Shown: in pieces, positions 950 to 25,864 of the stretch
Position numbering within the stretch: the first letter of the stretch is position 1
How the letters are laid out: every line of letters begins with the position of its first letter
The notes under the pieces: generated by a model
What the model saw: only the letters and a program-made list of their open reading frames with translations
Told to the model about the DNA's origin: nothing
Database searches by the model: none
DNA from: Victivallis lenta
Lineage (GTDB): Bacteria; Verrucomicrobiota; Lentisphaeria; Victivallales; Victivallaceae
NCBI RefSeq assembly: GCF_009695545.1
Contig: NZ_VUNS01000035.1
Coordinates: 1 to 53,588, forward strand
DNA length: 53,588 nt
Reading direction: 5' to 3'
Position numbers and translations under genes: made by a program

Positions 950-1516
950 TTATTCGACGGTTTGCCATTCCAGCGGCGGAACGAACACCCCATCGTCCTT
1001 GAGTTCGGCGAGATTCCCGCTTTCAGCGGAGAGATTTACTTCTGCCGCGATCTTGTAACCAGTGACCGTGACAGCCACACCTTTGCTTGCGGAATTGTCT
1101 GCTGTATAAGTGTCAACCAGATCGGTCAGGCGAACGAAAAGTTCATCTCCGTTGTTCATCGTGAAAAGAATCCCGATGTCCCCTTCAGACATTCCGGTGT
1201 AAATTCCATTGCCGGCTTCTTCCGCGCTGACCTCATGACGAACTGCCGCAGAGAGGAATTTATCTGTGAGATTTCCTCCGATGGTGATATAGGAGGAACC
1301 AGCCCAGATCCTTGCCTCGCCGGAGGCGTTCACATAGATGACTCCCGCTTCACCGGTTGCGGGAAAATCGGCGACCTGTCGAACGGGGAAGCTGAAGCGG
1401 ATTGTCCCCTTATAAAGCTCTCCCGTATCGGTCAGGAAATAAAGGGCGTTTTCGTCTTTGGCTTCGAGAGCGGCATACTGAGCCGCCGTCGCGGTAAAAA
1501 AGAGAACTTTTGCCAT
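950..1516 (-). CDS. Tail appendage protein with YFLTD N-terminal module (188 aa)
   Basis: Begins MAKVLFFTATAAQYAALEA, with the phrase YFLTDTGELYKG about residues 26-37. The same N-terminal pattern (F..T.AQY.A...YFLTD) occurs in the protein at 3099-3590, so the two share a module, probably for attachment to the tail tip or to other fibres. This motif type is typical of phage tail appendage proteins. The remainder is beta-rich with no catalytic signature visible. Start chosen at the ATG after a purine-rich stretch. A structural role is inferred from position and the shared module. Confidence 0.7.
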   Translation of the reverse strand: MAKVLFFTATAAQYAALEAKDENALYFLTDTGELYKGTIRFSFPVRQVADFPATGEAGVIYVNASGEARIWAGSSYITIGGNLTDKFLSAAVRHEVSAEEAGNGIYTGMSEGDIGILFTMNNGDELFVRLTDLVDTYTADNSASKGVAVTVTGYKIAAEVNLSAESGNLAELKDDGVFVPPLEWQTVE

Positions 1517-1544
1517 GGTGATTCCTTTTGTTATGGCGTTGAAG

Positions 1545-1916
1545 TTAAAGCGGAAGCCATTCGGCATCCGCTCCGGACGATTCTTTTTGTGAATTTGCGT
1601 TGCAGTTCAAAAGCACTCGGACGTGTTCGGAGTCAGCGCTGGATTTTTCAATGGCAAGGCCAAGAACAACTCCAGTATGCGCGGCAGATCCGGAAGAAGA
1701 GTTCCAACAGACACTGTCGCCAGTGGAGAAAGTGACTCCCGCCTGTTTGATGATATCGAAAACCCCGGAAAGGGTAAGAGTTCCAAGTGTTCCTGCCTTG
1801 ATCGGAATTCGTGTGATCCCAATCAGGTTGCCAAGGCACACGATTTCTCCCGCATCCATGTCTTGATTTGGGATATAATCCACCGCATCGCCTTTTTGAA
1901 TATATTTTGCTTTCAT
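1545..1916 (-). CDS. DUF2190-like protein, second copy, in the fibre cluster (123 aa)
   Basis: The sequence KAKYIQKGDAVDYIPNQD, followed by LIGITRIPIKAGTLGTLTLSGVFDI, aligns along its length with the capsid-associated DUF2190 protein at 19666-20190 (ARYVQKGDAIDYRP, then LIGIARLDIEANTLGSLAVVGVFDV). DUF2190 proteins are usually capsid decoration or cement proteins. This copy lies in the tail-fibre cluster, so it may have been duplicated and reused as a trimeric fibre base. Start at the ATG with AGAGG five bases upstream. Family certain by comparison within the window; role inferred. Confidence 0.75.
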   Translation of the reverse strand: MKAKYIQKGDAVDYIPNQDMDAGEIVCLGNLIGITRIPIKAGTLGTLTLSGVFDIIKQAGVTFSTGDSVCWNSSSGSAAHTGVVLGLAIEKSSADSEHVRVLLNCNANSQKESSGADAEWLPL

Positions 1917-2286: not shown

Positions 2287-3099
2287 TTACTCCTCCGAAA
2301 GGAATTTGATTTCTTCGGCACTCAAAACCGAACTGAAAGTCGCTGCCCATGCGACTCGTGATGTGATTCCATAAAATTCCTTTGTCGCATAGCTATGCCC
2401 TAGCCAGCAGGAATTGTAATCGGAAGTACAGGAGAACATGTTTCTATCCGAAGTCCAGGACGCACGGCTTTCTGACAGGATTTCTTCACCATTAAGATAA
2501 AGGCGGTGAATCCGCGTTGTCTGATCTACGCTTGTTGCAACAGTCAGCCATCGACCGGAAAGTGATTCCCGGGCATAAGCCTTCTTAATATTGCCGGCAG
2601 ATCGCGTTACCGTACTCCCTGAGCCGAATTCTGAAGAGTTCTGAAAACAAGCATAAGACTTGATTCCATAAAATCGATTTTGCCCATCAATTTCAATGCT
2701 GCATGAGAGATTGGCATGATCCAGATAAGAAGTTCCTCCGTTGTGGCAGAATATAACGCGATAAGAAAAAGGATATTCTGTCACATTGGTCGTATCCGTC
2801 AGAAATGCCCGCATCATGAGCGTATGATGAGGTGTCCGGCCGCTGAGATTCGCCTTCAGATAGAATCGGGAACCGTAATTGCCACTGATAAAATCAAACG
2901 CATCTGACGTTGCCAGCGAATTGTAAGTCAGTGTCGCCATTCCATCGTCAATATCCCGACATCCAGTTTGTGCAGAATTAGGAACAGGAAAAATCTTGTC
3001 ATTCATTGGGCTGAGTATGGAAAATCCATCTTCTGGGAAAATTGCAATGAAACAATCTTTTTCCCGAACTCGTGCCCGAATTCGATCCAGTAACGGCAT
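2287..3099 (-). CDS. Fibre protein with LamG-like jelly-roll fold (270 aa)
   Basis: The C-terminal half has the pattern of a concanavalin A/LamG-like domain: GRWLTVATSVDQTTRIHRLY, then LNGEEI, and a final WAATFSSVLSAEEIKFL, the usual last strand of these jelly-rolls. Such domains bind glycans, so a receptor-binding role in the virion tail is likely. The ATG overlaps the upstream stop as TGATG, with GGAGG eight bases before it. It sits between a YFLTD-module protein and a small fibre-cluster protein. Family assignment is by pattern; the target sugar is unknown. Confidence 0.7.
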   Translation of the reverse strand: MPLLDRIRARVREKDCFIAIFPEDGFSILSPMNDKIFPVPNSAQTGCRDIDDGMATLTYNSLATSDAFDFISGNYGSRFYLKANLSGRTPHHTLMMRAFLTDTTNVTEYPFSYRVIFCHNGGTSYLDHANLSCSIEIDGQNRFYGIKSYACFQNSSEFGSGSTVTRSAGNIKKAYARESLSGRWLTVATSVDQTTRIHRLYLNGEEILSESRASWTSDRNMFSCTSDYNSCWLGHSYATKEFYGITSRVAWAATFSSVLSAEEIKFLSEE

Positions 3100-3590
3100 C
3101 AGTAACACCTCCAGTCGACGACCAGCGCGGTAACCGCATCAGTTCCATCATTGAGTGTATCGTCCGGATCGGCTGTATCTCTGGCAATAGCGATCCGCCC
3201 GCTCAAGGGGGAAGATGGTGCGAGTGAACAGCGTGTTGCAGTTGCATTGACCGGAACCGTGAAACGTTCGGAGCCATGCGTCAGGACAACATTGCCGGTT
3301 ATATCAGGATTGGCGGAAACAAGCCACAGCTCAATTCGGGAGATTTCTTCGGCAAAGTATCCGGAAAGCTCCATGGTATTGTTTGTATCAAGATACGCAA
3401 CGACACCGTAAGTATCATGAGCAAACACACGTTTTACCAGGAATCGGTCAGCTTTCTCCCTGCTGACGTATGTCCGGGAACCGAGGCAGATGGCATTGGC
3501 ATCTGTCAGGAAATAAACAGTTTCAGGATTCGGGGTTTCGATGGCATCATACTGGGCTTGCGTCAGTTTACAAAAAGTAATTCTGCTCAT
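3099..3590 (-). CDS. Tail appendage protein with YFLTD module (163 aa)
   Basis: Starts MSRITFCKLTQAQYDAIETP, followed by YFLTDANAI, matching the N-terminus of the protein at 950-1516. The module probably anchors short appendages to the tail tip. The rest is beta-rich and has the look of a small sandwich domain. Its ATG overlaps the stop of the heptosyltransferase gene as ATGA, so the fibre genes and the glycosyltransferase form one translational chain. No enzymatic motif is visible. Confidence 0.7.
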   Translation of the reverse strand: MSRITFCKLTQAQYDAIETPNPETVYFLTDANAICLGSRTYVSREKADRFLVKRVFAHDTYGVVAYLDTNNTMELSGYFAEEISRIELWLVSANPDITGNVVLTHGSERFTVPVNATATRCSLAPSSPLSGRIAIARDTADPDDTLNDGTDAVTALVVDWRCY

Positions 3591-4831
3591 TGTGCAAGTC
3601 TCCTGATTTTATCAATGACCATTTTTGATGTAATGGCTTTCGAGCATTCGAATTTGTCCTTTGCCTCCTTTTTCCGGGGGCACCAGAGAAAATCGAAGTG
3701 GTTGAATTCACACCGCATGTCATTCCAGCATCCGTGACATACGGAAGGATTCAGCACCCGATACGGCGTGTAAAACTCATTGACCGGATCAGTAAATCCG
3801 GAAATCAGGATGACCGGGACATGGCAACACCACGCCAGCCAGGAAAGACCGGATGACAGGCCGATAAAAAATTCAGCGTCTTTGAGGAGGTTGATGCGTT
3901 CCTGCAATGGTCTGTCTCCTGTGAAATCTTCGCTTCCGTAGGGGATGTGATTCCAAACATAGTCCGATCCATACTCCGGCATTCTGTCAATGCAGAGGAC
4001 GCGATACCCCTGTTCCTTCAGAAAGGCAACGACTTCGCGCCAGCCGGAAGGGTTGTTCCAGTATTTGCACTGGCTGGAAGCCTGTGACGCAATGCAGACA
4101 TACTTCTCCCTGATCTGCCGGGGCGCGGAAAGATTCACTCGAGGAGGATCATCTCCGAGTTCATCATCCTCCAGACCGAGCAGAAGTCCCGCTGTCCGAT
4201 GCAGTCCAACCGCTCTGAAATCAAACGGCTGATGATCACTATCTCCTCCAAAGAAAAGGCCGAGGTTGTAAGTCGCATAGGGCTTGAGCTTCGCGGCTTC
4301 CTCCTTTGTAATGAACGAGATTTCCGGATACTGATCTTTGAAAAGTTCCGCCATGCGAGGTTCCATTGAGCAGAACAGCTTACATCTGTGTTTATTCAGA
4401 AAGCGTTCAACATATGAGAACCAGGCAATACTGTCGCCCAGCGCCCCCGCCGGAAGCTGAATGAGGACATCTTTTCCGGATAGATTCAGATCATGCCGGA
4501 AGATCGGCTGCCCCAATTCCCCTTTACGGTAAATTTCAAGCGAAAAGCGAATGAAAAACTTTTTGACGCTTTCGATTGTACATCCGGGTTTAACATCCAT
4601 ACAGTAAAGCAGACAATCTGTGTCTAAATCCCGGAATACACATCGGAATTCACCGGTATCGGGGAATCTGACACGAAGTCCGTTGTTAAAATCAAAGAGG
4701 ATGCCATCCACAGCCGGAACGGTTGGATTCTCCGGCGGAGGAATGAATGGCATATCAAGCATTTTCCGCTGAGGAAGCTCTACAACCGAAAAATCCGCAT
4801 TGGGTTTGCATTGAATGGAAAAATCCTGCAT
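3587..4831 (-). CDS. TibC/Aah-type protein O-heptosyltransferase (414 aa)
   Basis: Matches the bacterial autotransporter heptosyltransferase family, which transfers heptose from ADP-heptose to serines of SLS-repeat adhesins in the cytoplasm. Visible signatures are the GALGDSIAWFSYVERF segment with the family's catalytic aspartate (D133), the sugar-nucleotide fold segment VPVILISGFTDPVNEFYTPY, and a cysteine cluster of the kind that binds iron in TibC: C365-x2-C368 (VCHGCWND), C384 (WCPRK) and C396 (FECSKAIT). Length is normal for the family. Its ATG overlaps the stop of the SLS-repeat gene (TAATG), so enzyme and probable substrate are co-translated. Everything needed for activity appears intact. 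A phage-encoded member beside a tail protein is unusual. Confidence 0.88.
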   Translation of the reverse strand: MQDFSIQCKPNADFSVVELPQRKMLDMPFIPPPENPTVPAVDGILFDFNNGLRVRFPDTGEFRCVFRDLDTDCLLYCMDVKPGCTIESVKKFFIRFSLEIYRKGELGQPIFRHDLNLSGKDVLIQLPAGALGDSIAWFSYVERFLNKHRCKLFCSMEPRMAELFKDQYPEISFITKEEAAKLKPYATYNLGLFFGGDSDHQPFDFRAVGLHRTAGLLLGLEDDELGDDPPRVNLSAPRQIREKYVCIASQASSQCKYWNNPSGWREVVAFLKEQGYRVLCIDRMPEYGSDYVWNHIPYGSEDFTGDRPLQERINLLKDAEFFIGLSSGLSWLAWCCHVPVILISGFTDPVNEFYTPYRVLNPSVCHGCWNDMRCEFNHFDFLWCPRKKEAKDKFECSKAITSKMVIDKIRRLAQ

Positions 4832-6774
4832 TATTCACCTTCGTTGTTTGCATATTGGATGTATGCACCGTTTTCGGTGCTGATAACGGCCCCGGCGGCA
4901 CTCGTTACAGCCAGTGCGCTGGCTCCGCTCGCAACAAAAAAGAGACCATTCGACTCAACTGAAACACTGGTCGCATAATTGTTGCGCGAAAGATAAAAGC
5001 TCGCGCCGCCTGCGACGGATACGGATGTGACATGACATTGACTTGAATGCAGAATCATGACAGCCCCTTCAGCAAGCTGGACATTTTCCAGATTGATGAA
5101 AGTCGACCCTGCAAGCAGAGCGCCGTTTCCAAGTGTTACGTTTGCAGCTTCACATGAACTCCATATCCACGCAGTTCCTCCTTCCGTAACATTCAAGCCT
5201 AACACCGAACAGTTCTGTCCGACAAAGAGGCTGCCAGAACTTCCGACGGAAACATTTGTGAGCGCACAGCTCTGATTAACACTTACCAGAGCGTTTTCCG
5301 TAACAGTGAGATTTTCTGCGCTGCAATAGTTTGAAATCCATGCTCTTGCGCTGGAGCCGACAATTCCGGAAATCAGATCGCAATATGCGACGATGAACAT
5401 GCTGCAAAGCTCTGCTTTCACATTGGAAACCTGACACATGGAGTAAACCTCCAGACGTCCTCCAGTGGAAACAGTCACATTTTCAAATTCGCACCCGGAA
5501 GAGAGATTGAAACCGCCACCGCCAGACACAACAGCATTTCTTCCTGAACACCCGTATCGCATATAGCACCATGCGTTGGATGCCACAGAGATGTTCGTTC
5601 CGGCACATCCATTGGTAAACATCAGCCATCCGGAAACCAGCGTGGAGGTCATATTCCCGCGATTGGTGCAATAGCAAGACCCTCCGCGTTCCACCAGTGT
5701 GCTGAGAGCACGGCCGAAATTGGTAACGTATAACCATGCACTGCTTTTGACTGTGGTGCGGATAGCGGTTCCAAAAAAATCTGCAAACTGGCTTCCGCCA
5801 GACGAGATGACGGTATCCAATGCACTGCCGTAGGAATAAATAAACTGGCGACCGGAACTCATGATCGTGTTGTATTGTGCAACGGCTCCAAACGAAACAT
5901 ACTGGCTTCCGCCGGAGCTCATAATGGTGCTGATCGCAGAGGCATAATAATAGAGCTGCTGATCCTGACCTGAAACCAGAACATAGTTGCATGCGGTTCC
6001 GTTTGATGTGTAAAACGAACCAAACATGTTTGATCCTGTGACAAGCGTTTCGGAATCGTGCCCCCATACATGGTGGTAAATTCGCGCCCCTGAAGCAACG
6101 GTCACATCATAGCATTGCCCACCGGAGGATACCCCGAGAAACGCCCCCGGCATGACGGTGGTATGCGACAGATTCACACCACTGTAACACCAGAAGCTGG
6201 CGTTTTGCGTAATAGTGGTGTGCTGCACCTCAACTCCGACGGACTGTCCTGCATTGAAGTCTGCTCCGCTGGAAACTACGATGCTTTCAAAAGTCGCGCT
6301 TGTTCCTTGCCCGTAAAGTCCGCCGCCATAGGAAACGTGTGCATTGCAGACGCTCGCGTTGGAACAGACATAGACATATCCCCGTGAATGAATATTCATT
6401 CCGCTTCCCCAGCCACCCGGACTCACGGAACAGTATCCCTGCGAGTTCAGAATGGTTTCAAGCGCTGTTCCACCAGAGGATACAGCCAAAACGCCGTTGC
6501 TGTTTACCGTGGTGCTGGAAACGACTCCGCCGTGCTTTACATTTACAGACGCACCATAATTCACAGTCGTCCGGATTGCCGTTCCAGCTGATGAGACCTC
6601 CATTCGGCTGATTGCGCTGGAAACAAGATAACGGCCCTCCATGACCATTCCGCTTTGATTGCAGGAGCCGTTTCGGAGGAAGGTGAAGACACCTCTGGTG
6701 CCAAACACAGCTTGATTCGGATCATTGACTGTAGCTCCGGCTGCCATTTTATTATACTGATAAGGAATAATCAT
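4831..6774 (-). CDS. SLS-repeat fibre/adhesin, likely heptosylated (647 aa)
   Basis: After ~45 residues the protein is built of about 25 degenerate repeats of 19-20 residues in the autotransporter strand-loop-strand style (for example VSSGGTALETI, VISSGGSQF, VTEGGTAWIWSS), predicting a right-handed beta-helix rich in serine, glycine and threonine. There is no signal peptide (start MIIPYQYNKMAAGATVNDP) and no C-terminal beta-barrel, so it is not a self-secreted autotransporter. It lies between a fibre protein and a heptosyltransferase that acts on this repeat type. The simplest reading is a virion tail spike or fibre, glycosylated before assembly. It follows the upstream gene with AGGGG close to the ATG. 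The adhesin fold is strongly supported; virion location is inferred. Confidence 0.85.
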   Translation of the reverse strand: MIIPYQYNKMAAGATVNDPNQAVFGTRGVFTFLRNGSCNQSGMVMEGRYLVSSAISRMEVSSAGTAIRTTVNYGASVNVKHGGVVSSTTVNSNGVLAVSSGGTALETILNSQGYCSVSPGGWGSGMNIHSRGYVYVCSNASVCNAHVSYGGGLYGQGTSATFESIVVSSGADFNAGQSVGVEVQHTTITQNASFWCYSGVNLSHTTVMPGAFLGVSSGGQCYDVTVASGARIYHHVWGHDSETLVTGSNMFGSFYTSNGTACNYVLVSGQDQQLYYYASAISTIMSSGGSQYVSFGAVAQYNTIMSSGRQFIYSYGSALDTVISSGGSQFADFFGTAIRTTVKSSAWLYVTNFGRALSTLVERGGSCYCTNRGNMTSTLVSGWLMFTNGCAGTNISVASNAWCYMRYGCSGRNAVVSGGGGFNLSSGCEFENVTVSTGGRLEVYSMCQVSNVKAELCSMFIVAYCDLISGIVGSSARAWISNYCSAENLTVTENALVSVNQSCALTNVSVGSSGSLFVGQNCSVLGLNVTEGGTAWIWSSCEAANVTLGNGALLAGSTFINLENVQLAEGAVMILHSSQCHVTSVSVAGGASFYLSRNNYATSVSVESNGLFFVASGASALAVTSAAGAVISTENGAYIQYANNEGE

Positions 6775-6776
6775 AA

Positions 6777-8225
6777 TTACCCCTCATAGGAATAGGCATA
6801 ATTTGCCTGAAAGCAGACGTTGTTGATCGCGCCGTCCTTGCGTAGAGCGCGAATGACAAACACATGATATGTCCGATTATTGTTGGAAAGTTCCAGCGTT
6901 TCGGGAATATGAATTCCTACCATGGAACAGTTCAGGCTTCCAAGCGAAACTCCGGTTACTCGAACACTGCATGGAACATGGTACTCCCACGTCAACATTT
7001 CATTCATTCCGATCGAATATGCCGATCCACCGACTTTCGTCTGGATCGCGGTAAATTCCAGTTCGATAGTACCGGAGCCGTTCACGCTGGTATTCTTCAC
7101 AATAGGAGAATCCAGATAAAGAGTTTTGGGATTTGCCACGAGATACACCTTCTGAAATACGGGATCGGAGATTCCGCTCATTGTGTGTTCGTGCGCGGCA
7201 GGCGTGTAAGTCGACGGTTTATCTGTGATTCCGCTCCATGGTACAGAATCCGCCTTTGCTGAATGATCAGCTTCTTGTGAGGCATTTACTTTCCCGTCGT
7301 CATCAGTGTCGTAGACCGTTTTTACCATGTCGCCGACCCCTTGACCATCATCCCCAAGATATTTTACCCAGACAGCATTGCCGAAATCTTCTGCTCCGGG
7401 TTCTGGAATCTCTTCTGCGACGTGAATTTCCGCGCGGAATTTCAAGGCGTTGGATGGGGTGAGACTGAATCCTGTTCCTGCCGCGTCCGATGCATAGGCA
7501 ACATAACAAAAGGAATCCTTTCCGGGATCGCCTTTAGGCCCCGTAAGCAGCTGGATCGGATCGCTCCAAACTCCCGCGTCATTTCCCCGACTTCGCAAAC
7601 GGAGAAAAAGATCCGACGCACTTTGTTTATCGTGCCATTCGTCACCGGAAACGCTGAACTGACATTCTAAGCCGGCAGCGATCAGAGCGCGCACCTGTGC
7701 TTCTGTCAGATATTCTGTCGCAAGGTCAAGAGGATCGGATAAGCTCGTGATCCGGTTGCGAATCGTGAACGATTTCACCTGCAGGATAAAAATCAGCTCA
7801 CCGGAAGCGTCATATCCGCAGAGTTCACCAGCAAGAGTGTTCTGGCTTTCGCGGGTTCCGAGCCATTCCGCCAGTTCTGCCGTGTTCATATGCGTCATCG
7901 GGATTGAGATCTCTGTATAAGAAAGTACCTCTCCGTCAATCTCTCCCTCGATCGAAGCAAGGGTGATTTTTTCATTGTCTCCGACAAGTTTATACGCAGT
8001 CGCCGCATCGAAGTCAGAGTCCATGGCCCAGCTCCAGCTTACCACCGAACTGAGATCTTCCATTGGGTAAGGTTCCGTGCCGTCGGAATTCGCGAAGAGG
8101 CGCATTTTCAAGCAGCAGGCTGCCCCTCGGACAAGTGTCGGGGCTGTGGCATTTTTCGCGTTGGCATAATCCCGGACTGCAGCAAGAGTTTCATTTGCCG
8201 CAACATAAAAAATGATGTTCTGCAT
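6777..8225 (-). CDS. Tail fibre / upper baseplate protein with collagen-like linker (482 aa)
   Basis: The N-terminal ~220 residues resemble a tail-tip anchoring domain. A short collagen-like GPKGDPGKD occurs at about residue 230, a common linker in phage fibres. It is followed by ADHSAKADSVPWSGITDKPS and a histidine-rich AAHEHTMSG, typical of short tail-fibre repeats. The C-terminal ~120 residues form a beta-rich tip. Start at the ATG that overlaps the upstream stop as TGATG. It precedes the SLS-repeat gene by two bases, so the two fibre proteins may act together. Assignment is by architecture. Confidence 0.75.
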   Translation of the reverse strand: MQNIIFYVAANETLAAVRDYANAKNATAPTLVRGAACCLKMRLFANSDGTEPYPMEDLSSVVSWSWAMDSDFDAATAYKLVGDNEKITLASIEGEIDGEVLSYTEISIPMTHMNTAELAEWLGTRESQNTLAGELCGYDASGELIFILQVKSFTIRNRITSLSDPLDLATEYLTEAQVRALIAAGLECQFSVSGDEWHDKQSASDLFLRLRSRGNDAGVWSDPIQLLTGPKGDPGKDSFCYVAYASDAAGTGFSLTPSNALKFRAEIHVAEEIPEPGAEDFGNAVWVKYLGDDGQGVGDMVKTVYDTDDDGKVNASQEADHSAKADSVPWSGITDKPSTYTPAAHEHTMSGISDPVFQKVYLVANPKTLYLDSPIVKNTSVNGSGTIELEFTAIQTKVGGSAYSIGMNEMLTWEYHVPCSVRVTGVSLGSLNCSMVGIHIPETLELSNNNRTYHVFVIRALRKDGAINNVCFQANYAYSYEG

Positions 8226-8596
8226 CAACTTGTCTCCTTCTGATTTTCAAGCTGCACCAGACGATCCGCACACTCTGGATGGTCATTGCGGAATGCACTG
8301 CGGACAGCCTCCAGAAGTTCATTCCATCCTTCGCCGATTTCAGCATCACGGTTCTCCTCAATCAGAATTGCCAGATTTCGTGCAAGCAATGCTGTGTCAC
8401 GATGTTCAAACATGAGATGGTCTGCCGCAAGTCGGAGTTGACCGGAAATAACGTCACGGTTATCGTCGGTGTATGTAAATTCGTGAAACAGGTTCCATGC
8501 CTTCACCGTGTGTTTTTTTGCGCAGGCGCTGCATTGATCGTAGGGCGAAGTGCGTGAAACGGAAATCCCGGATTTCCCATGGCAGTTACAACTCAT
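8225..8596 (-). CDS. Small cysteine-bearing tail-region protein (123 aa)
   Basis: Start MSCNCHGKSGISVSRTSPYD with GGAG seven bases upstream. Four N-terminal cysteines (CNC, CSAC) and nearby histidines suggest a bound zinc or iron. The rest is helical (LRLAADHLMFEHRDTALLARN). The gene overlaps both neighbours in the tail-fibre operon, so it is a real operon member. I do not recognise a named family and see no basis for a specific function. Confidence 0.65.
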   Translation of the reverse strand: MSCNCHGKSGISVSRTSPYDQCSACAKKHTVKAWNLFHEFTYTDDNRDVISGQLRLAADHLMFEHRDTALLARNLAILIEENRDAEIGEGWNELLEAVRSAFRNDHPECADRLVQLENQKETS

Positions 8597-9326
8597 TGAA
8601 ATCTCCATTCCCCGACATTGAATAAGTCAGTTCTTCTGTTTCGGTAATGAAATGCTCCGCAGGAAGAGGAGACAGATTCACATCTGAGGCAGAAATTATT
8701 TTCCTTTCTTCAAAGCCAGCAACCCGTTTCGCGTAATAACAGTCATGGAAAAACGCACACTTATAGGCGGGGACGCCATCTGCAATGATTTCATGCAGCT
8801 GATGAAGTCCAGGCTTGTAGCTCCAGGAAAAAATTTCTCCACCTGGATATTGACCTGAAATCAACAGGCGGTTCGGTTCGAATGGATCATAGGAGACGCG
8901 ATAGAGAAATTCAACGCCATGAAACGTGAGAATTATTCTGCGACATGGTTCCACGAGAAAAAGAGGTCCGCGACGACTTGCATAAGCAACGCAGTTCTTG
9001 TGAACAAAACCGACATCGGCAAATTGCTGGGCCATCACTTCCCCATGAAGCCCATACATCCTGTAAAGGCGGAAGCGCCGATCTCCCTTCCAGCCTCCGG
9101 CAATAAATGAGATTTTCCAAATTCCATCTTCAAAATCAGCACAAGGAGCACATTCCGTTGCATCTTCCGGAAGTCCGGTCCGGATTCGTTTCCATTTTTT
9201 TCCAGTGAAATGATAGAGTTTCCAGAGTCCGCCCACCGGAATGCAGCAGAACTCTTCCGCGCCGCCATCCGGTCGCACGGCGGCGAACGGCATGTGTGTA
9301 AAACGTGAATCCGTAAATTGAAACAT
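8586..9326 (-). CDS. Unrecognised tail-cluster protein (246 aa)
   Basis: Start MFQFTDSRFTHMPFAAVRPDG with GGAGG in front. The protein is beta-rich with repeated aromatic blocks (GGLWKLYHFTGKKWKRI, then WKISFIAGGWKGD and RFRLYRMYGL), as in a small propeller or kelch-like fold. That would suit a receptor-contacting or structural tail protein. No catalytic motif is evident. It is tightly packed between tail proteins, which supports a virion or assembly role, but this is inference. Confidence 0.65.
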   Translation of the reverse strand: MFQFTDSRFTHMPFAAVRPDGGAEEFCCIPVGGLWKLYHFTGKKWKRIRTGLPEDATECAPCADFEDGIWKISFIAGGWKGDRRFRLYRMYGLHGEVMAQQFADVGFVHKNCVAYASRRGPLFLVEPCRRIILTFHGVEFLYRVSYDPFEPNRLLISGQYPGGEIFSWSYKPGLHQLHEIIADGVPAYKCAFFHDCYYAKRVAGFEERKIISASDVNLSPLPAEHFITETEELTYSMSGNGDFNEL

Positions 9327-9342
9327 GCTTCCTCCATGATGA

Positions 9343-9777
9343 TTATCCGTTGGGGCAAGGCCATTCAATGCTTCCGTCTTCCCGGACGCATCCTTGCTGC
9401 AATTCCATGTATCCGTTATAGTTGTAGCCGGATACGAATTCGGCGGGCAGTCCGGTCAACTTACCGTTCCGGTCAATTGTCCCGCTGTTATAGATTGTGC
9501 CGGAACATGAGGCATCGGAATTGTTATGATGGGATTCTCCAACATCACGGATGCGCCAACGGCCGCCTGGCAGACCGACACGGTCCCCCTGATAGGCTCT
9601 CAAATCCCAGCGCTCTGTTCCATTGCTTTTGTTTGTAATTTTAGATGCGATGACTCGGGGACGGCAGCAGGGACAGACCCAGCAAACGATCAAACGTCCG
9701 TTTTTTCGTTTTTTGATGATTGTGCCGCTGTTCCGATTTTTCCATAGATACACGGCAACTGTTTGATTCTCCGCCAT
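9343..9777 (-). CDS. Unrecognised tail-cluster protein (144 aa)
   Basis: Start MAENQTVAVYLWKNRNSGTI, with GGAG eight bases upstream; the site overlaps the stop codon of the previous gene. A basic N-terminal half contains a CWVCPCCRPR cysteine cluster. The C-terminal part carries repeated SGTI units (NSGTI twice, CSGTIYNSGTIDRNG). Composition suggests a small structural protein with a metal-binding knuckle. No family recognised. Confidence 0.6.
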   Translation of the reverse strand: MAENQTVAVYLWKNRNSGTIIKKRKNGRLIVCWVCPCCRPRVIASKITNKSNGTERWDLRAYQGDRVGLPGGRWRIRDVGESHHNNSDASCSGTIYNSGTIDRNGKLTGLPAEFVSGYNYNGYMELQQGCVREDGSIEWPCPNG

Positions 9778-9782
9778 ATCAC

Positions 9783-10574
9783 TTACTCCGTTGTATCGCA
9801 GACTTCCACACTGAGAAGAATTGCCACGGGTACACGGAAAGAACAGATCGTTACAGAATCTCCACTGACCTCGCAACTCCCGATCGGGTAGTTGTATTGC
9901 CCCGGAGTGGCAAATTTGATTTCCGGGGTTGACCATTTCCCGCTGCTGTCAATCGTACTGCAGACGCACACAATCCCATTCTGTGCAGAGAGCTTCTTTT
10001 CTGCAACCTCAAGAAACTCCCCGTTACGTAAGAGATAGCCTGCGTTGACTGTCAGTTGACGATTTTCCGTATCATAGGATAGTGCAAAGGGCCCATCATA
10101 ATTGTCCTGGCTGCTTGCGCCCAGAAGTACAATGCCTTTCCCACTGGATGCGAAGATAACTGGAGCTCCGGTCGTTCCCCGGGTGAAAACCTCCGGATTG
10201 GATTTGCTTGGACTTGCATACGCTCCACTTCCGGAAAGAGAAACCCGGGCGGGACCGCACAGAATGCAACTCCCCACTGCTTTCGATTCCAGATCATTGA
10301 CGATTACTCCCCATGGTTTCAATGGATCGCTGAATGCTTCTGCTGGAACCGCGTCATCGCAGAGTTGACCGTTCTCGGAGAAGTTTACTGCACAACCGCT
10401 CTTCAAGACCGATGAAGAATTGTTGTAAACTTGAATCCGGATCATACCACCTGTGGCAAGCATCGGTTTGGCATTGAAACCGTTCAGCGTATTGACCAGA
10501 CGGCGGACATTGTTGCTCAGGAGCGCATTGGGAATGAATGTGTCTCCTGCGCTGACATCAGGAAAATAAGCCAT
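9783..10574 (-). CDS. Tail-associated structural protein (263 aa)
   Basis: Begins MAYFPDVSAGDTFIPNALLS. Residues ~45-160 read like a decoration-type beta domain (VYNNSSSVLKSGCAVNFS, CGPARVSLSGSGAYA, VIFASSGKGIVLLGA). The C-terminal part is also beta-rich. It lies two genes after the tape measure in transcription order, in the tail-tip cluster. Function unknown; a tail-tip or appendage scaffold role is inferred from place. The start is the ATG three bases after the upstream stop. Confidence 0.65.
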   Translation of the reverse strand: MAYFPDVSAGDTFIPNALLSNNVRRLVNTLNGFNAKPMLATGGMIRIQVYNNSSSVLKSGCAVNFSENGQLCDDAVPAEAFSDPLKPWGVIVNDLESKAVGSCILCGPARVSLSGSGAYASPSKSNPEVFTRGTTGAPVIFASSGKGIVLLGASSQDNYDGPFALSYDTENRQLTVNAGYLLRNGEFLEVAEKKLSAQNGIVCVCSTIDSSGKWSTPEIKFATPGQYNYPIGSCEVSGDSVTICSFRVPVAILLSVEVCDTTE

Positions 10575-10576
10575 GA

Positions 10577-11398
10577 TCACAACCCCAGTGCGCTGAACGA
10601 GGCGTATTCACAGACCTGATCGACGTAGATGCCCTCAACCTCGATTTTCGGGGCTCCGCCTGCTGCGACACTTTTACTGATTGCCCAGGCATACTCAAAC
10701 CCTTTTTTGCTGACGCTGTGTTCACCGATTTTCACATTGGATTCATTGGGCTGAATGGCAAAATTGAATGTCACTGTCACTTTGCTGGCCTTTTTTGCGG
10801 GCGTCGAATAACTCATGCCGAGAAACATCACTTCTCCAGCCGACCAGCCCTTGAATGAGCCGGAATTGACCTTTCCGACCAGCGAAGCGACGCTTCGTTT
10901 GTAGGAGGTTGTCAGACGGCTGATCCGCATTTGCTTTGTGTAGGTCTCGCGCAGCTGAGCTGTGGGAATATCAACCCCCGCGATTTCACAGTCGTCACCG
11001 GATTTGCCGTTCCATCCGATCGCGCCGCCGGCATCCTTGTCGCCATACACTTTTTTCTGGGCAAGGCTGTAAAGGAGATGTTTTGTTCCGCCTCCGCAAT
11101 CAAAGCTCAGCGTGGGGGATTCATCGTCATCATCGTCACTGTCAGGAACTGCTGAAACCTCTTCTTCCCGGTAGATGGCATTCACCCGGTAGGTCGTTTC
11201 ATTTGCGCGCTCGTCAATTTCGATGCTTTCAAGGGGCAATTCCCGGCAGCTTGCCGGGGCGCTTGCCAGCACAGCGGCAAGAGCTTCGTCCTCATCCGCC
11301 GCATCAAAAACCAGATAGGGAATTTCCGCGCTTGTGTATTTCCCGTTTTTATCTATGCTTTTGGAATGTTCCGTATAACTTTGCTCCACTCTTGCCAT
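10577..11398 (-). CDS. Tail protein directly after tape measure (273 aa)
   Basis: The gene follows the tape measure in transcription order by 13 bases; GGAG lies nine bases before the ATG. Residues ~70-95 hold an acidic run (DSDDDDDE). The second half contains GKVNSGSFKGWSAGEVMFLG and KASKVTVTFNFAIQPNES, as in tail-tip or distal-tail proteins that form beta-sandwich rings. Position after the tape measure is where distal tail proteins are usually encoded. I cannot assign a named family from sequence alone. Confidence 0.65.
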   Translation of the reverse strand: MARVEQSYTEHSKSIDKNGKYTSAEIPYLVFDAADEDEALAAVLASAPASCRELPLESIEIDERANETTYRVNAIYREEEVSAVPDSDDDDDESPTLSFDCGGGTKHLLYSLAQKKVYGDKDAGGAIGWNGKSGDDCEIAGVDIPTAQLRETYTKQMRISRLTTSYKRSVASLVGKVNSGSFKGWSAGEVMFLGMSYSTPAKKASKVTVTFNFAIQPNESNVKIGEHSVSKKGFEYAWAISKSVAAGGAPKIEVEGIYVDQVCEYASFSALGL

Positions 11399-11411: not shown

Positions 11412-14400
11412 TTATTTGTATGCCAGTGTCGTTGTGCCGGATGCGTTGTCCATTCGTTTCAGAAGCTTGTTCGTCTCTTTGCTCTGGCGCACCATCTGTT
11501 CTGTGGCGTTCGCTGTCCGTTCCGCCTCTGTCCCGCCTCCACCGAGCATCGCCTGCAATGCCGAAGCAAGAAAACTTCCGCTTACCTGAGTCCGTTCCGC
11601 AGCTCCGGCTGTTCCTTCCTGAGCCGAGCGCAGACGGTCGGAATATTTGTCCACCATCGACTCCGCACGGGTGTATGCGCTGTGAGCGTCATCGAGTTTT
11701 TTACGCTCGTTATCATCGATTTTGCCGTCCGCCTGCGTATCCTGAAGTTCCTTTTCAAACTGCGCTTTTGCCGCAGCCGCTTCTTTCTGATATTGAGCAA
11801 TCAATCCTTCCAGCATCTGCTGTCCGGCGGCAGGATCGTTTTTCAGCGTTTCATCGATTTTTCGATCCTGCGCCGCTTCGGCCCGCCGATCCTGAATGCT
11901 CTGTTCGGACTCCTGAAAGCGCTCCTGATAGGAGGCAACATCATCCTTCATTTTCTGAGCGGCTTTTTCCCGCGCTTTGGCGATGCGGTCTTCCGCTGTC
12001 TGATCCGCTCCGGCGAGTTTCCCCTCCAGTTCCGCGATCTTCGCCTTGTCCTGTTCTTTTTCCGGCTTGGATTTTTCATAATCCAGCATCGTCTGAATCA
12101 GCTGTTTGTATTCGTCGCGAAGCGCAATGATGTCGTCGATCTCGTTTTCAAGTTCAGTTTTGCGTTCCCGTGCAAGCTGTTTGTCAATTTCGGCGACACG
12201 TTTTGCGGCTGCGTCCGCGTTGTCGGATGCCGCCTGGCGGCGTTGTTTTTCCGCCTCAACTTTTTCCTCCGTGGTCGCTGTTTTCCCTTCTTCTCCGGTT
12301 GTTGCGCCGGGCTTGCCTTCCTGAACCGCCTGACGGCGTTTCTGCAATGCCCAGATTTTCTGCCGATAAGCGGATGCTCGTTCTCCGTTGGCTTCGATTT
12401 TCTTCTGCGCTTCTTCCTGCCTGCCGGAGATCTGCGACCAGAGGTTGTGATTCCAGTAAGAGAGCAGTGCCTCATCTTCCGCCTGGAGCTCTTTGAGGTT
12501 GGCTTCCAGTTCGGCGATTTCCGCATCCAGCTCTCCAAGTGTCGCAGCTTTCATGGCTTCATTGAACTTGTCCTGCGCCGAAGCGGCAAGATTCAGTTTC
12601 CCGGTGATCGTATCGATTCCGAGCCCGAGGTCGTTGTAGGCTCCGTTCAGCGCATTGACGATGGTTTGCGCTTCCTGCTGTTCCGCTGCGGTCAGCTTTT
12701 CCTGTTCCGCCAACTGCTTGAGCCGTTCCAGCTGAGCAAGATGCGTCTCCTTCTGCGGATCGTTTCCGGTTTGAATGATTTGTGCGGCTGCGGTAAATTG
12801 CCTCTGTGCTTCCGTCAAGGCGACGATACGTCCCCTGGCCGTATCCACGGAAAGTCCGAGGTCGCCGTATTTTGCTCTGAGCTGTTCCAGCAGGGTGTTT
12901 GCCTCCGCAATGCCGGACGCGTCCAGCTTCGGCATTTGAGAAAGTGTCTGCAGACGGCTGACCTTGTCCGCATCCTCCGTCCCGGAGACTTTGATGGAAA
13001 TCTCCCGGAGACTTGCAGCGACGCTGTTGAGCTTGACGATCTTTCCCGCAGTCCGGTCGACCGCAACTCCGAGATCGCCGTATTTCTTCGACAGTTCACC
13101 GATCAGTCGTTCCGCGTCATTCTGCTGATCCACATCCAGTGTGACTTCCAGTGACAACGCTTTCAATTCCCGCAACTTGTCAAGGTCGCCGCTGTCCTTG
13201 ACAGAAAGCTCCATGGCTCCGATGCGGGCACTCTCCGCATTCATGGCTGCAATCTTTCCAGAGACCTTGTCCACAGTCATTCCCAATGAGCCGTATTTCG
13301 CTTCCAGCTCGGAAATCAGTCGCTCCGCCTCTTCCTGCCCCTGCACATCCAATTTTGCCTGAATGGAGAGGGCTTTCAGACGATTGAGCTTTTCGATATC
13401 CTCACTTCCGCGAACTTTGAATGAGAGGTCACTGATCGCTCCGGCTACGGTGTTCAGACGTTCAATCTGTCCCGTTGTCCGGTTTACAACCAATCCGAGA
13501 TCGCCGTATTTTTTTGACAGTTCTCCGATCAGGCGTTCCGCATCATTCTGTTGCGGAATCGTCAGATCCAGCTCCATGGAAAGAGCTTTCAGCTGATCGA
13601 ACTTCGGCAGGTCGCCTGCGTCAATTTTCGTTGAGAGTCTGATTCCCTCCAGACGCTCGGCTTCTTCCGATAATGCACGAATCCTTCCCCGTGCACGATC
13701 CACTTCCAGTCCAAGTGCGCCGTATTTGGCGGAGAGGTCTTCGATCAGAGCAGCCGCTTCATTCTGTTCGTCCAATTCAAGGCTGACTTTGACGGAGAGT
13801 TCCTCCAGGCGCGCCATCTTTTCCAGATCATCGGCGTTGCTCACTTTGAACTTCAGCTCGCCAAGTTTTGCCGCAGCACTGGAAAGAGCCGTAATTCGCA
13901 TGGCGTTGTCGCTGATCGTGATCCCGAGGTCGCCGTATTTTTTCTGCAGCTTGGATGCCAGCATACGGGCTTCCGCCATCTCGGCATTCGTCAGTTTCTG
14001 CTTTGCCGCCAGCTGCTGGAGCCGTTCCATGCGGATTTCATCCGTTTTGCGGAGCTGGTCTCCCTTTTCCCGAAGCGTGCTCATCTTGTCCGAAAGCTGC
14101 GCGGTATAGGATCCGGCGCGTGAGAGATAGATGCACACACCAGCCAGAACCGCCCCCAGCGCAATCAGCGCAACCGCCACCGGGTGAGCGGCAATAAAGC
14201 TCATGACCGCTCCCAGAGCCAGCATTGCCGCAGCCGCGACCTTGGCTGCCGCCGCCAGCAGGAAGTTTCCCGCAGCAACTGCGGAAACCGAAACCACAGC
14301 TTTCAGATTCGCCGCCGTGAAAAGCGCGGTCACGGCAATTCCGGCTTTGCGGACCTGATTCAATGCCACAGTTCCCGCTGTGCAGAGCGCTTCCGCAACT

Positions 14401-16349
14401 GTTTGTGCTTTCACTGCGACAGTTGCCGCAATCGATGCGGCCGTATAGGACTTCAGAGCACTTGCCATGGCCGTCCATGCTGTTGCCAGTGCGCGTCCCG
14501 CCGCCATGGCTCCTTCTGCGACAGCCTGTGCCTTGAGTGCCGCTGCTGCCGCGATGGAAGAGAGTGTCAATCCCTTCAGGGCGTTCGCCATGGCCGTCCA
14601 GCCCGAGACCAACGCCGTTTTCACCGCTGCCGCCGCTTCTGCCGCCGCCTGTGCTTTCGTTGCAGCGGTTGCCGCGACGGCGGCGAGACTGAAGTTTTTC
14701 AGCGCACTTGTCATTGCGGTCCACTTTGCCGCCAGCGTCGACTGCGCGGCAGCCAGAACTTCGGCCGCCGCCTGTGCTTTGGTCGCAACGGCTGCCGCCA
14801 GCGCCGTGTTCCGGAATGAGGCAAGGGTTTTCGTTACGGCCTGCCATTTGGCTGCCAGTGCTGACTTCGCTGCCGCGGCGGCTTCGGCATTGCTCATCAG
14901 AATGATGCTTGCCCGCGCACGGTTCGCAGATGTCGAGGCAAGCCCCAAAGCCGCACAGAACTTTTCCGTACCGACCAGTGCCGGAATCGCCGTGTTGCGG
15001 TAGTCCGCGAACGACTGCGTCAACAGCGTAAAGGAGGTCTTGAGTGCTGTCCCCTGCGCAATGGCCACCCCCTGAAGGAAAGTGAAACCCTTGATCGCCG
15101 TCTGAACTACGGCGATTCCGGCAGCCGCCCCTTTGGCGGCGACTCCGATGGCAATCAGGACCACGGCAAGGCCGGCCGCGCCCACCACCGTCACGGCAAA
15201 GGCTGTCACCAGCCCCTGATTCGCCTCAATCCATTGGGTGAAGGCGTTGATGACCGCCGTCACCTTGACCACCAGCGGCTGGAGTGTCGAATTCATCGCA
15301 TCGGCAATCGCATTCATCGCACCTTCCACTGCGGAAAGCAGAAGGCGGAATGCGCCGCCAAGCCCGGCATCCATCTTTTTGGCGGTGTCTGCCGCAACTC
15401 CTTCCACATCCTGGAGCTTGGCCAGCATCGCATCCAGTTCATCGGTATTCGCCGTCAGCGTCAGTCCGGCAAGTGATCCGCGAATATCAAAGATATCTTC
15501 CGCAAATGCCAGCTTTTCTGCGGTGGGCATGGTGCTCATTGCCTTGGCGATGTCCCGCATGATCTCCGCCATTTTGCGGAGATTTCCGTTTGCGTCGACT
15601 GTTTCCACACCCACGGAACGGAGCTGATCCTGAACTTTCACTTTGGCAAACTGCGAGAAACTCTTGCGCAGAGCCGTTCCGGCGAGAGATCCTTTGATGC
15701 CCATGTTCGCAAGAACCGCGATCGCCGCACTGGTTTCCCGAATCGACTCCCCGGCGGCGGCCGCCTGCGGTCCGCCCATTTTCAACGCCTCAAAGAGGTC
15801 AATCAGTGTCTGTGCCGAACTGTTCGCAGTGACCGTGAGAACATCGGCAACGTCACTCATCTGTGACGCTTCAATGCCGAAGATCCGCATGCTGTTCGCG
15901 GCGATGTCGCCAGCTTCCGCAAGTTCCGTTCCCGTTGACCGGGCAAGATTCAGCACCGCATCGATGGATGCCTGGATTTCCGTCGGGGAGAAACCCATTC
16001 GTCCCAGCGACACCATTGCATCCGCGGCCTGCTGCGCGGTATAGGAGGTGTCACGTCCGAGACGCTGCGCGGTCTTGGTCAATGCTTTGAAATCGGCGTC
16101 GGTCGCCTGGGTAACCGCCTGCACAAGACGCATGCTGTCATCGAAACCGGCGAATGACCGGGCCGCCATCACCAGCGGTGCGGCCATTGCGCCCGAGAGC
16201 ATCAGGAGATCTTTCCCGACATTCGTACAGGTTCTTCCAAAGTTTTGCAGCTGAGCCTGGGCGCTCGTCAGATTCCGCTGAAGTTTGCTGGTCTCGGCGG
16301 TTACCTCGACATATGCCCGGCCTGCTCGGATATTGCTCGATAGGGACAT
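11412..16349 (-). CDS. Tail tape measure protein (1,645 aa)
   Basis: Determines tail length and lines the tail tube. The N-terminal ~350 residues match TP901-type tape measures (LGRDTSYTAQQAADAMVSLG, MGIKGSLAGTALRKSFSQFA). Hydrophobic membrane-type segments follow at about 375-415 and 680-745. Two repeat arrays are visible: four alanine-rich repeats of ~41 residues near 480-655 (each with KAQ.VAE-like blocks and W.A......LK), and seven repeats of ~71 residues near 790-1260, each with a K/A-Y-G/N-x-LG core such as KYGDLG. The C-terminus is a charged coiled coil. At about three bases per angstrom-scale helix rise a 1.6-kb-residue protein predicts a long flexible tail. Only a weak purine stretch precedes the ATG. 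Confidence 0.95.
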   Translation of the reverse strand: MSLSSNIRAGRAYVEVTAETSKLQRNLTSAQAQLQNFGRTCTNVGKDLLMLSGAMAAPLVMAARSFAGFDDSMRLVQAVTQATDADFKALTKTAQRLGRDTSYTAQQAADAMVSLGRMGFSPTEIQASIDAVLNLARSTGTELAEAGDIAANSMRIFGIEASQMSDVADVLTVTANSSAQTLIDLFEALKMGGPQAAAAGESIRETSAAIAVLANMGIKGSLAGTALRKSFSQFAKVKVQDQLRSVGVETVDANGNLRKMAEIMRDIAKAMSTMPTAEKLAFAEDIFDIRGSLAGLTLTANTDELDAMLAKLQDVEGVAADTAKKMDAGLGGAFRLLLSAVEGAMNAIADAMNSTLQPLVVKVTAVINAFTQWIEANQGLVTAFAVTVVGAAGLAVVLIAIGVAAKGAAAGIAVVQTAIKGFTFLQGVAIAQGTALKTSFTLLTQSFADYRNTAIPALVGTEKFCAALGLASTSANRARASIILMSNAEAAAAAKSALAAKWQAVTKTLASFRNTALAAAVATKAQAAAEVLAAAQSTLAAKWTAMTSALKNFSLAAVAATAATKAQAAAEAAAAVKTALVSGWTAMANALKGLTLSSIAAAAALKAQAVAEGAMAAGRALATAWTAMASALKSYTAASIAATVAVKAQTVAEALCTAGTVALNQVRKAGIAVTALFTAANLKAVVSVSAVAAGNFLLAAAAKVAAAAMLALGAVMSFIAAHPVAVALIALGAVLAGVCIYLSRAGSYTAQLSDKMSTLREKGDQLRKTDEIRMERLQQLAAKQKLTNAEMAEARMLASKLQKKYGDLGITISDNAMRITALSSAAAKLGELKFKVSNADDLEKMARLEELSVKVSLELDEQNEAAALIEDLSAKYGALGLEVDRARGRIRALSEEAERLEGIRLSTKIDAGDLPKFDQLKALSMELDLTIPQQNDAERLIGELSKKYGDLGLVVNRTTGQIERLNTVAGAISDLSFKVRGSEDIEKLNRLKALSIQAKLDVQGQEEAERLISELEAKYGSLGMTVDKVSGKIAAMNAESARIGAMELSVKDSGDLDKLRELKALSLEVTLDVDQQNDAERLIGELSKKYGDLGVAVDRTAGKIVKLNSVAASLREISIKVSGTEDADKVSRLQTLSQMPKLDASGIAEANTLLEQLRAKYGDLGLSVDTARGRIVALTEAQRQFTAAAQIIQTGNDPQKETHLAQLERLKQLAEQEKLTAAEQQEAQTIVNALNGAYNDLGLGIDTITGKLNLAASAQDKFNEAMKAATLGELDAEIAELEANLKELQAEDEALLSYWNHNLWSQISGRQEEAQKKIEANGERASAYRQKIWALQKRRQAVQEGKPGATTGEEGKTATTEEKVEAEKQRRQAASDNADAAAKRVAEIDKQLARERKTELENEIDDIIALRDEYKQLIQTMLDYEKSKPEKEQDKAKIAELEGKLAGADQTAEDRIAKAREKAAQKMKDDVASYQERFQESEQSIQDRRAEAAQDRKIDETLKNDPAAGQQMLEGLIAQYQKEAAAAKAQFEKELQDTQADGKIDDNERKKLDDAHSAYTRAESMVDKYSDRLRSAQEGTAGAAERTQVSGSFLASALQAMLGGGGTEAERTANATEQMVRQSKETNKLLKRMDNASGTTTLAYK

Positions 16350-23942: not shown

Positions 23943-24153
23943 GGCAGCACTCCGGTTCATACTTCCCGCGATAGGATTCACATTCGCCGATGATGAACTC
24001 CGCATGATGATCGCATTTGTTGAGAAGCGCGCACTCAATTGCCGCAAACGCCTTCCGCATTCTGCGGACCTTTTTCTTCAGTTTGCGATACCGGTCAGCC
24101 AACTCGGCATATTGCGCCGAACACTCCAGGCATTCCACATCAGCTTCACTCAT
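23929..24153 (-). CDS. Small cysteine-rich coiled-coil protein (74 aa)
   Basis: Start MSEADVECLECSAQYAELAD with GGAGG upstream. It has a CLEC pair, a basic coiled coil (YRKLKKKVRRMRKAFAAIEC), and a C-terminal CDHHAEFIIGECES with further cysteines, suggesting a zinc knuckle. It overlaps the methyltransferase gene and the portal-adjacent gene. No family recognised. Possibly an assembly factor or a small regulator. Confidence 0.6.
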   Translation of the reverse strand: MSEADVECLECSAQYAELADRYRKLKKKVRRMRKAFAAIECALLNKCDHHAEFIIGECESYRGKYEPECCHAGK

Positions 24154-25864
24154 TGATTTCCTCCGTTTGTTTGAAATCAGCCTCACGTGAGGCTGATTTT
24201 GCGGTTTCTGCTGTGATATAATTTTCTCGTCCGTGCAAAATTTCCTCTTCCACCTTCTGAATCCGTTCCCCGATCCACATCATACAGTTTACTGCCATGG
24301 AGTTACCGCAGGCTTTGTATCTGGGCGCATCAGGACATTCCTCCTCGGATTTACCATTCCAGGGAATTCGCGTGTGATTGTCGGGAAACCCCATCAAGCG
24401 CTCGCATTCGAGGGGAAGCAGTTTGCGAACTGTCGGTTTTCCGGATGGCGTATAGGCGACTCCATGCACATCTCCGGCGGTCTGCGTATACATCACACCT
24501 TCTTCAGAAACCCCCATACCCGATCCCCCGGAACGTTCACCGGGCTTCATTTTGTCTCCATCAAGTGCGATTGCTTCGACAATGACGGTTTCCGCGCCGG
24601 GACCGCCTGCCGTAACTGTTTTTCCCGCTTTCGCCTCTGTCACATAAAGACCGCCGTTCGGGCGATCTTTCCGTCTGCCGTTCGCATCGCAGAAGGAAAC
24701 GTGAAAACATTCTTCACGAGCTACCGCAGGTGTCACTTCCGTGCGCATCGTAGGGAAAACCTCATTCCAGAATCCCTGCAGATCACCTCCCGCATCGTTT
24801 TTAATGAAGCCGATGACTGTTTCCGGTTCCCGTGGAACTTCCTGCAGGAGCGGAAGATTGTTCCCGCCTGTCCCCATGCGGGCAACGATGGATTGTGACA
24901 CTTCGACCGATTTTATACGGGAATCGGGAGCATGGTTTTCATAGCAAAGAAAATCCGTTCCGGCCTGTTCAATCACACATTGGAGACGCCCCTTGTCCGG
25001 CATGAACTGCTGATCACTCGTCCGCGTCAGTGTGCCCGCCTTCTGGGAACCGTCCCACCAGTCTGTCGAAGCAGAGCCTCCTTCAGAACCGGCGGAAGCG
25101 TTTTGCCTCTTCGTGCGGCGCGGCGGAGTATCCCCTCCGCACATTTCACCGTCAAATAGTACCTTGGCGGGATATTTCCACTGACCAGAATATCCGATAA
25201 GGAAGAGACGCTTCCGGCGCTGCGGGATTGCCCTCGGAAATTGTTCCACTCGGGTAAATTGAGAGTCAAGTACTCTCCATGCCACTCCGAATCCTCCCGG
25301 AGCCGGAGTGACGATTCCGCATTTTCTCCATCCGCTTTCAGGGACCGGGATATTCCATCCACAGAGCAGGGAAACAAATCGTCCGAAATCCTCACCTCGG
25401 CGGCTGGAAAGAGCAGCGGGGACATTTTCCCACACAACCCAGCGGACTCCAAGCTCAAAACACAGTCGTACAAAGTCGAGAGCGAGCACGCTTCGCTGAC
25501 CTTCAAATCCCAGTCGTTTCCCTGCGATTGAGAGATCCTGGCAGGGGGTCCCCCCGACGAGCAGGTCGATATCTTCATTTACATCCTCTTTTTTTATTAG
25601 GGTGAAATCTCCGAAATTTGGAATCGTCCCGTCCTCCGGAAGAGCTGCGATCTGACGTCTCCACAATTCCCGTGTTTTCCGCTCCTTCTCGTTGTCTGCC
25701 ATTGCCGGATCAAGCGGTCGCAATGGACGAGTCGCTTTGAATCGATGACACAGCACCGCTGATGGGAATGGCTCAACCTCGGCAAAAAAAACAGCTTTCC
25801 AGCCTAGAGGGCGCCAGGCGAGCGTTGCCGCCTCAACTCCACTGCAAATGCTGCCATATTCCAT
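24146..25864 (-). CDS. C5-cytosine DNA methyltransferase (572 aa)
   Basis: Converts cytosine to 5-methylcytosine with S-adenosylmethionine. Motifs are in order: I (SICSGVEAATLAW, residue 5), IV with catalytic C108 (GGTPCQDLS), VI (WENVPAALSSR), VIII (QRRKRLFLIGY), and IX-X (LPLECERLMGFPDNHTRIPW; YKACGNSMAVNCMMWIGERI). The long stretch between VIII and IX is the target-recognition region. No restriction enzyme is next to it, so it probably protects phage DNA. It is the first gene after the 25899-25938 promoter element. A 26-bp palindrome lies in its last codons. Confidence 0.94.
   Translation of the reverse strand: MEYGSICSGVEAATLAWRPLGWKAVFFAEVEPFPSAVLCHRFKATRPLRPLDPAMADNEKERKTRELWRRQIAALPEDGTIPNFGDFTLIKKEDVNEDIDLLVGGTPCQDLSIAGKRLGFEGQRSVLALDFVRLCFELGVRWVVWENVPAALSSRRGEDFGRFVSLLCGWNIPVPESGWRKCGIVTPAPGGFGVAWRVLDSQFTRVEQFPRAIPQRRKRLFLIGYSGQWKYPAKVLFDGEMCGGDTPPRRTKRQNASAGSEGGSASTDWWDGSQKAGTLTRTSDQQFMPDKGRLQCVIEQAGTDFLCYENHAPDSRIKSVEVSQSIVARMGTGGNNLPLLQEVPREPETVIGFIKNDAGGDLQGFWNEVFPTMRTEVTPAVAREECFHVSFCDANGRRKDRPNGGLYVTEAKAGKTVTAGGPGAETVIVEAIALDGDKMKPGERSGGSGMGVSEEGVMYTQTAGDVHGVAYTPSGKPTVRKLLPLECERLMGFPDNHTRIPWNGKSEEECPDAPRYKACGNSMAVNCMMWIGERIQKVEEEILHGRENYITAETAKSASREADFKQTEEINE
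24174..24199. repeat. 26-bp perfect palindrome inside methyltransferase 3' end
   Basis: The two 13-base halves (AAATCAGCCTCAC and its complement) are perfect. It encodes KSASREADFK near the C-terminus. A near-copy, off by two bases, is at 32114-32139 inside a ParB-like gene, where it encodes KSASGEAHSK. It resembles short palindromic elements that insert in frame in genes. Presence in two unrelated genes argues against coincidence. Confidence 0.75.

Follow-up and report, generated by a model that had tools for sequence, protein, structure and literature searches.

The closest described systems are the pairs formed by a BAHT, a protein O-heptosyltransferase, and an autotransporter carrying SLS repeats, such as TibC with TibA and Aah with AIDA-I (PMC4358343). 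In TibC, D110 is the base, T226, K230, R286 and W305 bind the sugar, and cysteines 339, 342, 358 and 370 make up the iron finger; the TibC ring holds its substrate, and Ser-313 of TibA has been mapped by mass spectrometry as a heptosylation site (PMC4358343). Another BAHT homologue, BimC, binds both iron and the autotransporter that it partners, and is reported to have no transferase activity (PMC6439308).

SLS beta-solenoids are also found in the self-associating adhesins antigen 43 (Ag43) and Cah. On the phage side, parallel beta-helices encoded by tail-region genes occur in the tailspikes of P22, Sf6 and HK620 and in phi29 gp12, which are trimers, several of them with enzymatic sites. Sugars on virion proteins have been described in mycobacteriophages, whose capsid and tail-tube proteins are glycosylated at their C-termini (Freeman 2023, as cited in PMC12619734). 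Within the literature searched, where subscription journals are thinly covered, the BAHT papers concern bacteria and mostly autotransporters; we found none linking BAHTs to phages, and no report of the autotransporter heptosylation system being used on a tail spike.

Here we describe a locus in which a BAHT gene and an SLS gene stand side by side in a phage. It shares with TibC-TibA and Aah-AIDA-I the enzyme family and its key residues, the repeat type, a predicted solenoid and the adjacency of the two genes, but the putative substrate is a phage protein that has neither signal peptide nor barrel and is encoded in a tail operon. The window, i.e., the whole stretch of DNA analyzed, is a contig of 53,588 nt with portal, capsid/protease, decoration and gpA-type terminase genes, replication genes, a serine recombinase and a tape measure, and is a tailed phage. 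It is probably temperate, and its host is probably a member of the Lentisphaeria, given the bins of its nearest relatives. No terminal repeats were found on the contig and no tRNA in the window, and a scan of the window for promoters and terminators gave scores that barely exceed those of shuffled sequence. The window also holds an AbiEii-type nucleotidyltransferase toxin gene (43912-44826, minus strand; Pfam, 115 bits) and two DNA methyltransferase-like genes (24146-25864, minus strand; 45510-46742, plus strand), the second of them with a ParB_N domain. The features of the tail module that concern us are the following.

950..1567, minus strand: second possible Phage_tail_C protein (PF24243, 18.7 bits, under the cut-off)
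2287..3108, minus strand: possible LamG/ConA-like lectin-fold tail protein (PF13385, 18.2 bits, under the cut-off)
3099..3590, minus strand: Phage_tail_C protein (tail tip domain), gene downstream of the pair (PF24243, 36.8 bits)
3587..4831, minus strand: predicted BAHT (TibC/Aah-type) protein O-heptosyltransferase, 414 aa (TIGR04414, TibC structures in the PDB)
4829..4833, minus strand: TAATG, overlap of the SLS stop with the BAHT start, one shared base (read directly)
4831..6774, minus strand: SLS (AIDA-type) repeat protein, putative tail spike and BAHT substrate, 647 aa (TIGR04415, Pfam AIDA)
4852..6606, minus strand: predicted beta-solenoid, SLS protein residues 57-641, 31 rungs, mostly of 19-residue period (AlphaFold2 model)
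6607..6774, minus strand: conserved N-terminal segment, SLS protein residues 1-56, PYxYN...GxRGVFTxLRNG (kept in full-length phage SLS homologues)
6777..8228, minus strand: tail-fibre-like protein, 483 aa, directly upstream of the SLS gene (weak PHROG tail matches, E 3e-4 to 1e-3; syntenic orthologues at 54-67%)
8225-8608, 8586-9368, 9343-9936, 9783-10580 and 10577-11398, minus strand: five small conserved tail-module genes (same order in relatives)
11412..16349, minus strand: tape measure protein, 1645 aa (TIGR01760, 212 bits, and many PHROG tape-measure families)

An earlier note on this DNA had drawn attention to the two open reading frames and their TAATG overlap, and had set the SLS protein among tail-fibre genes; all of this is borne out. 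The pair belongs to a same-strand tail operon, flanked by the fibre-like gene and by the Phage_tail_C gene, with the tape measure further upstream (the AlphaFold2 model of the fibre-like protein was poor, pLDDT 52, and was set aside). The overlap, or a close spacing of the two genes, is also seen in relatives, and possibly reflects translational coupling.

The assignment of the enzyme to the TibC/Aah type, with catalytic Asp and iron-binding Cys cluster intact, is upheld by several layers of evidence. The 414-aa protein matches NCBIfam TIGR04414 (Aah/TibC SLS O-heptosyltransferase) with 538 bits against a curated cut-off of 200, over profile positions 2-374 of 374; Pfam recognizes TibC_1st and Glyco_transf_9 domains, and the solved TibC structures 4rap/4rb4 match with an E value of 1e-136. 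D133 corresponds to the catalytic base D110, and C365, C368, C384 and C396 to the four iron-finger cysteines, all of which are kept. Three of the four sugar-binding residues are kept as well (K256, R312 and W331 for K230, R286 and W305), so that membership by full-length match above cut-off and residue set holds with T226 as the one exception: this sugar-contacting residue is conservatively replaced by S252, the position being Ser in 15 and Thr in 2 of 17 aligned sequences, among which the remaining TibC-equivalent catalytic, sugar-binding and Cys positions are invariant. Family and active site make heptosyltransferase activity, which together with an iron-bound dodecamer characterizes BAHTs, probable, although conserved residues fall short of proof of it, since BimC, a relative, is reported inactive. 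It could indeed be proposed that the phage BAHT is catalytically idle and acts as a chaperone or scaffold, folding or holding the long solenoid before assembly, just as BimC binds its partner and the TibC ring holds its substrate. The invariance of the active-site residues across the phage set speaks against this, as do the low dN/dS values of 0.07 and 0.10 in two pairs, a sign of strong purifying selection, and we regard an idle enzyme as improbable.

The earlier note had suggested a search for the same gene pair in other phage tail clusters, and the search found it in 13 distinct contigs, the window included (L001-L005, L098-L101, L103, L188 and L190). The gene succession, from tape measure through small tail genes and fibre to SLS and BAHT, recurs with protein identities of 29-76% for the pair, and the SLS gene immediately precedes the BAHT gene in 13/13, a count that comes from related, hence non-independent, records, some of which end at an edge that hides genes, and one of which (L005) has a rearranged tail module. 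No tail module of this type with BAHT and without SLS was found among those read. Several of the 13 contigs sit in Lentisphaeria bins; the label "Elusimicrobia" of L103 was disregarded as host evidence, as was the "Clostridia" label of L097, about 99% identical to the window. The latter is a tail contig with 98-100% protein identity, whose presence in a "Clostridia" MAG is probably a binning error. In the INPHARED phage collection, tblastn gave no match for the SLS protein and only four distant records for the BAHT; this collection is therefore without a close relative.

In turn, a phage-borne enzyme is not obligatory for this type of spike, because two SLS spikes have no adjacent BAHT. One is L208/G194, whose genome has three above-cut-off BAHT matches at other sites; the other is G059, a distant phage record in which no BAHT was found. 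In the sister modules L192/L193/L196, L194 and L197 neither SLS nor BAHT reaches its family cut-off (L197 has one sub-threshold SLS match), and the genes that follow the fibre are different, and fibre-like wherever a family matched.

BAHT-family genes are more widespread in viruses. All 50 of the 50 virus records tested (viral contigs L010-L072 and H1, Microcystis phage Mel-JY01) reach the TIGR04414 cut-off, and in many environmental viral contigs, some above 200 kb, the BAHT domain lies inside open frames of at least 700 aa. A search for SLS repeats in the other BAHT-like virus records (L006, L009 onwards) gave no match, for which reason these were excluded as the same system. Two candidates, L007 and L008, were set aside as bacterial: in the tree both cluster with sequences of acetic acid bacteria, and L008 moreover coincides with a contig of Acetobacter farinalis.

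Such genes give some ground for supposing that the BAHT mainly modifies another target, be it another virion protein, a host autotransporter or lipopolysaccharide. BAHT-family genes do occur in virus records without SLS, e.g., a lone BAHT near a terminase large subunit gene (L202, 10254-11414, in the record of L006, where no SLS was found), and the phage of L005, which also has the SLS-BAHT pair, carries a second BAHT-family gene apart from its SLS gene (L201, 5810-7288), adjoining genes judged by eye to be head- and tail-like. Against this stand the SLS gene directly upstream of the tail-module BAHT in every case read, and TIGR04414 itself, an equivalog model for SLS O-heptosylation and not for a lipopolysaccharide core enzyme. 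A principal target other than the SLS protein seems to us even less probable than an idle enzyme.

As regards the putative substrate, the 647-aa protein has TIGR04415 SLS repeats in 4 stretches at 73 bits (cut-off 30) and a Pfam AIDA match, also at 73 bits; the SLS-repeat and BAHT family scores are both far beyond chance. The AlphaFold2 model, built from an alignment of 11 phage sequences, has a mean pLDDT of 87.9 and a continuous solenoid, with values below 50 for residues 1-31. The protein thus combines the two features of the SLS O-heptosylation target class (TIGR04415), i.e., repeats above the cut-off and a predicted solenoid fold. The top structural match is 4q1q, the TibC-glycosylated TibA55-350 (VIA-align Z 31.2, 3.0 A, 268 residues), aligned over model residues 372-641. 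It is followed by Ag43 (Z about 27), which shares the SLS beta-solenoid and, unlike the phage protein, is a surface-anchored autotransporter. Phage tailspikes and polysaccharide-active beta-helices come at Z of about 17-20, P22, Sf6 and phi29 gp12 at about 17-19. In comparison with these beta-helical tailspikes, the window protein is an SLS solenoid closest to autotransporter passengers, and has a dedicated glycosyltransferase. Furthermore, the loop position -3 (the third residue ahead of the next strand) is Ser in 14 of 30 loops (binomial p 3e-5, for a Ser background of 14.5% taken from the protein's own composition); with the register assigned in this analysis, this position would correspond to TibA Ser-313. 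The earlier proposal of a coupled enzyme-substrate pair is thereby supported.

The classical (type Va) autotransporter is defined by a signal peptide and a C-terminal beta-barrel, and the phage protein has neither: its conserved N-terminal segment is non-hydrophobic, the peak 15-residue mean hydropathy within the first 60 residues being 0.65, and shows no signal peptide by this measure, Pfam detects no autotransporter barrel, and the solenoid reaches residue 641 of 647. This supports the conclusion, also anticipated in the earlier note, that the SLS protein is not an autotransporter. Its dN/dS of 0.15-0.37 indicates purifying selection weaker than that on the BAHT. As expected of a tail spike or fibre, its gene follows the tape measure within the tail module, at a place kept across phages. 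In other known cases SLS proteins form the passenger domains of adhesins on the cell surface, and the protein could accordingly be thought of as a lysogenic-conversion product, displayed on or released from the lysogen, and not part of the virion. The missing signal peptide and barrel are hard to reconcile with this, as are the position between fibre-like genes of a same-strand tail operon, in an order kept across phages, and the replacement of the SLS gene by other fibre-like genes in the sister modules; we consider such a product very unlikely.

Regarding the origin of the pair, the tree places the phage BAHTs together with both BAHT copies of the host and two further viral sequences in one clade (support 99/100), separate from the enzymes that partner proteobacterial autotransporters. 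Within the phage set, 11 of 13 BAHTs make up a clade with 96/95 support; with 2 changes on the tree, the phage BAHTs need not all share a single origin. Where bacterial loci have an SLS neighbor, it is mostly downstream of the BAHT gene and in three cases upstream, whereas in the phage loci it is always upstream. Judged from gene trees and gene order, these data would fit a capture of the pair from the host lineage, with rearrangement. The host genome does have two further BAHT genes and SLS genes of its own, but a bacterial pair inserted by chance in a prophage, with no tail role, is hardly credible and largely refuted, because the pair is conserved in the tail modules of many phages, at the same position and 29-76% identity, in a gene order opposite to that of most bacterial loci and with the 11 BAHTs in one clade. 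As for the sugar donor, ADP-heptose is probably available in the host, whose genome carries a GmhA-like gene and an HldE domain II-like gene; the pathway is no more than probable because both matches are under the NCBIfam curated cut-offs.

Altogether, we hold it quite likely that the locus encodes a phage tail spike heptosylated by its own phage-borne enzyme. A temperate tailed phage, its host probably among the Lentisphaeria, would carry a two-gene spike cassette in which the SLS protein, as a tail spike or side fibre of the virion, would be docked to the tail by its conserved N-terminal segment (residues 1-56), the 31-rung solenoid serving as shaft and binding surface. Acting in the cytoplasm before the spike joins the virion, and in the manner of TibC on TibA, the BAHT would use host ADP-heptose to attach heptose to serines in the loops of the solenoid. 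These sugars would most likely make the thin solenoid stiffer and shield it, and lend it a hydrophilic, adhesive surface.

On a broader scale, it appears reasonably probable that tailed phages have co-opted bacterial autotransporter O-heptosylation for sugar-coated spikes, as a standing part of the tail module and a new route of virion glycosylation, and that BAHT-family genes have also spread in other phages, some of them very large and aquatic. As in the mycobacteriophages of Freeman 2023 (as cited in PMC12619734), phage proteins would carry glycans, here predicted from genes; going by that citation, the glycans there sit on capsid and tail-tube C-termini, whereas here a heptosyltransferase of the autotransporter kind is paired with a putative spike. 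If true, this would clearly exemplify a phage spike whose dedicated glycosyltransferase belongs to a structurally understood family, glycosylation of the receptor-binding part would be phage-encoded and selected, and one fold and modification system would unite bacterial adhesins and phage spikes. SLS-BAHT would, moreover, be a small and testable enzyme-substrate pair for probing the effects of sugars on adsorption and particle stability, and it draws attention to the unstudied BAHT-family genes of environmental phages.
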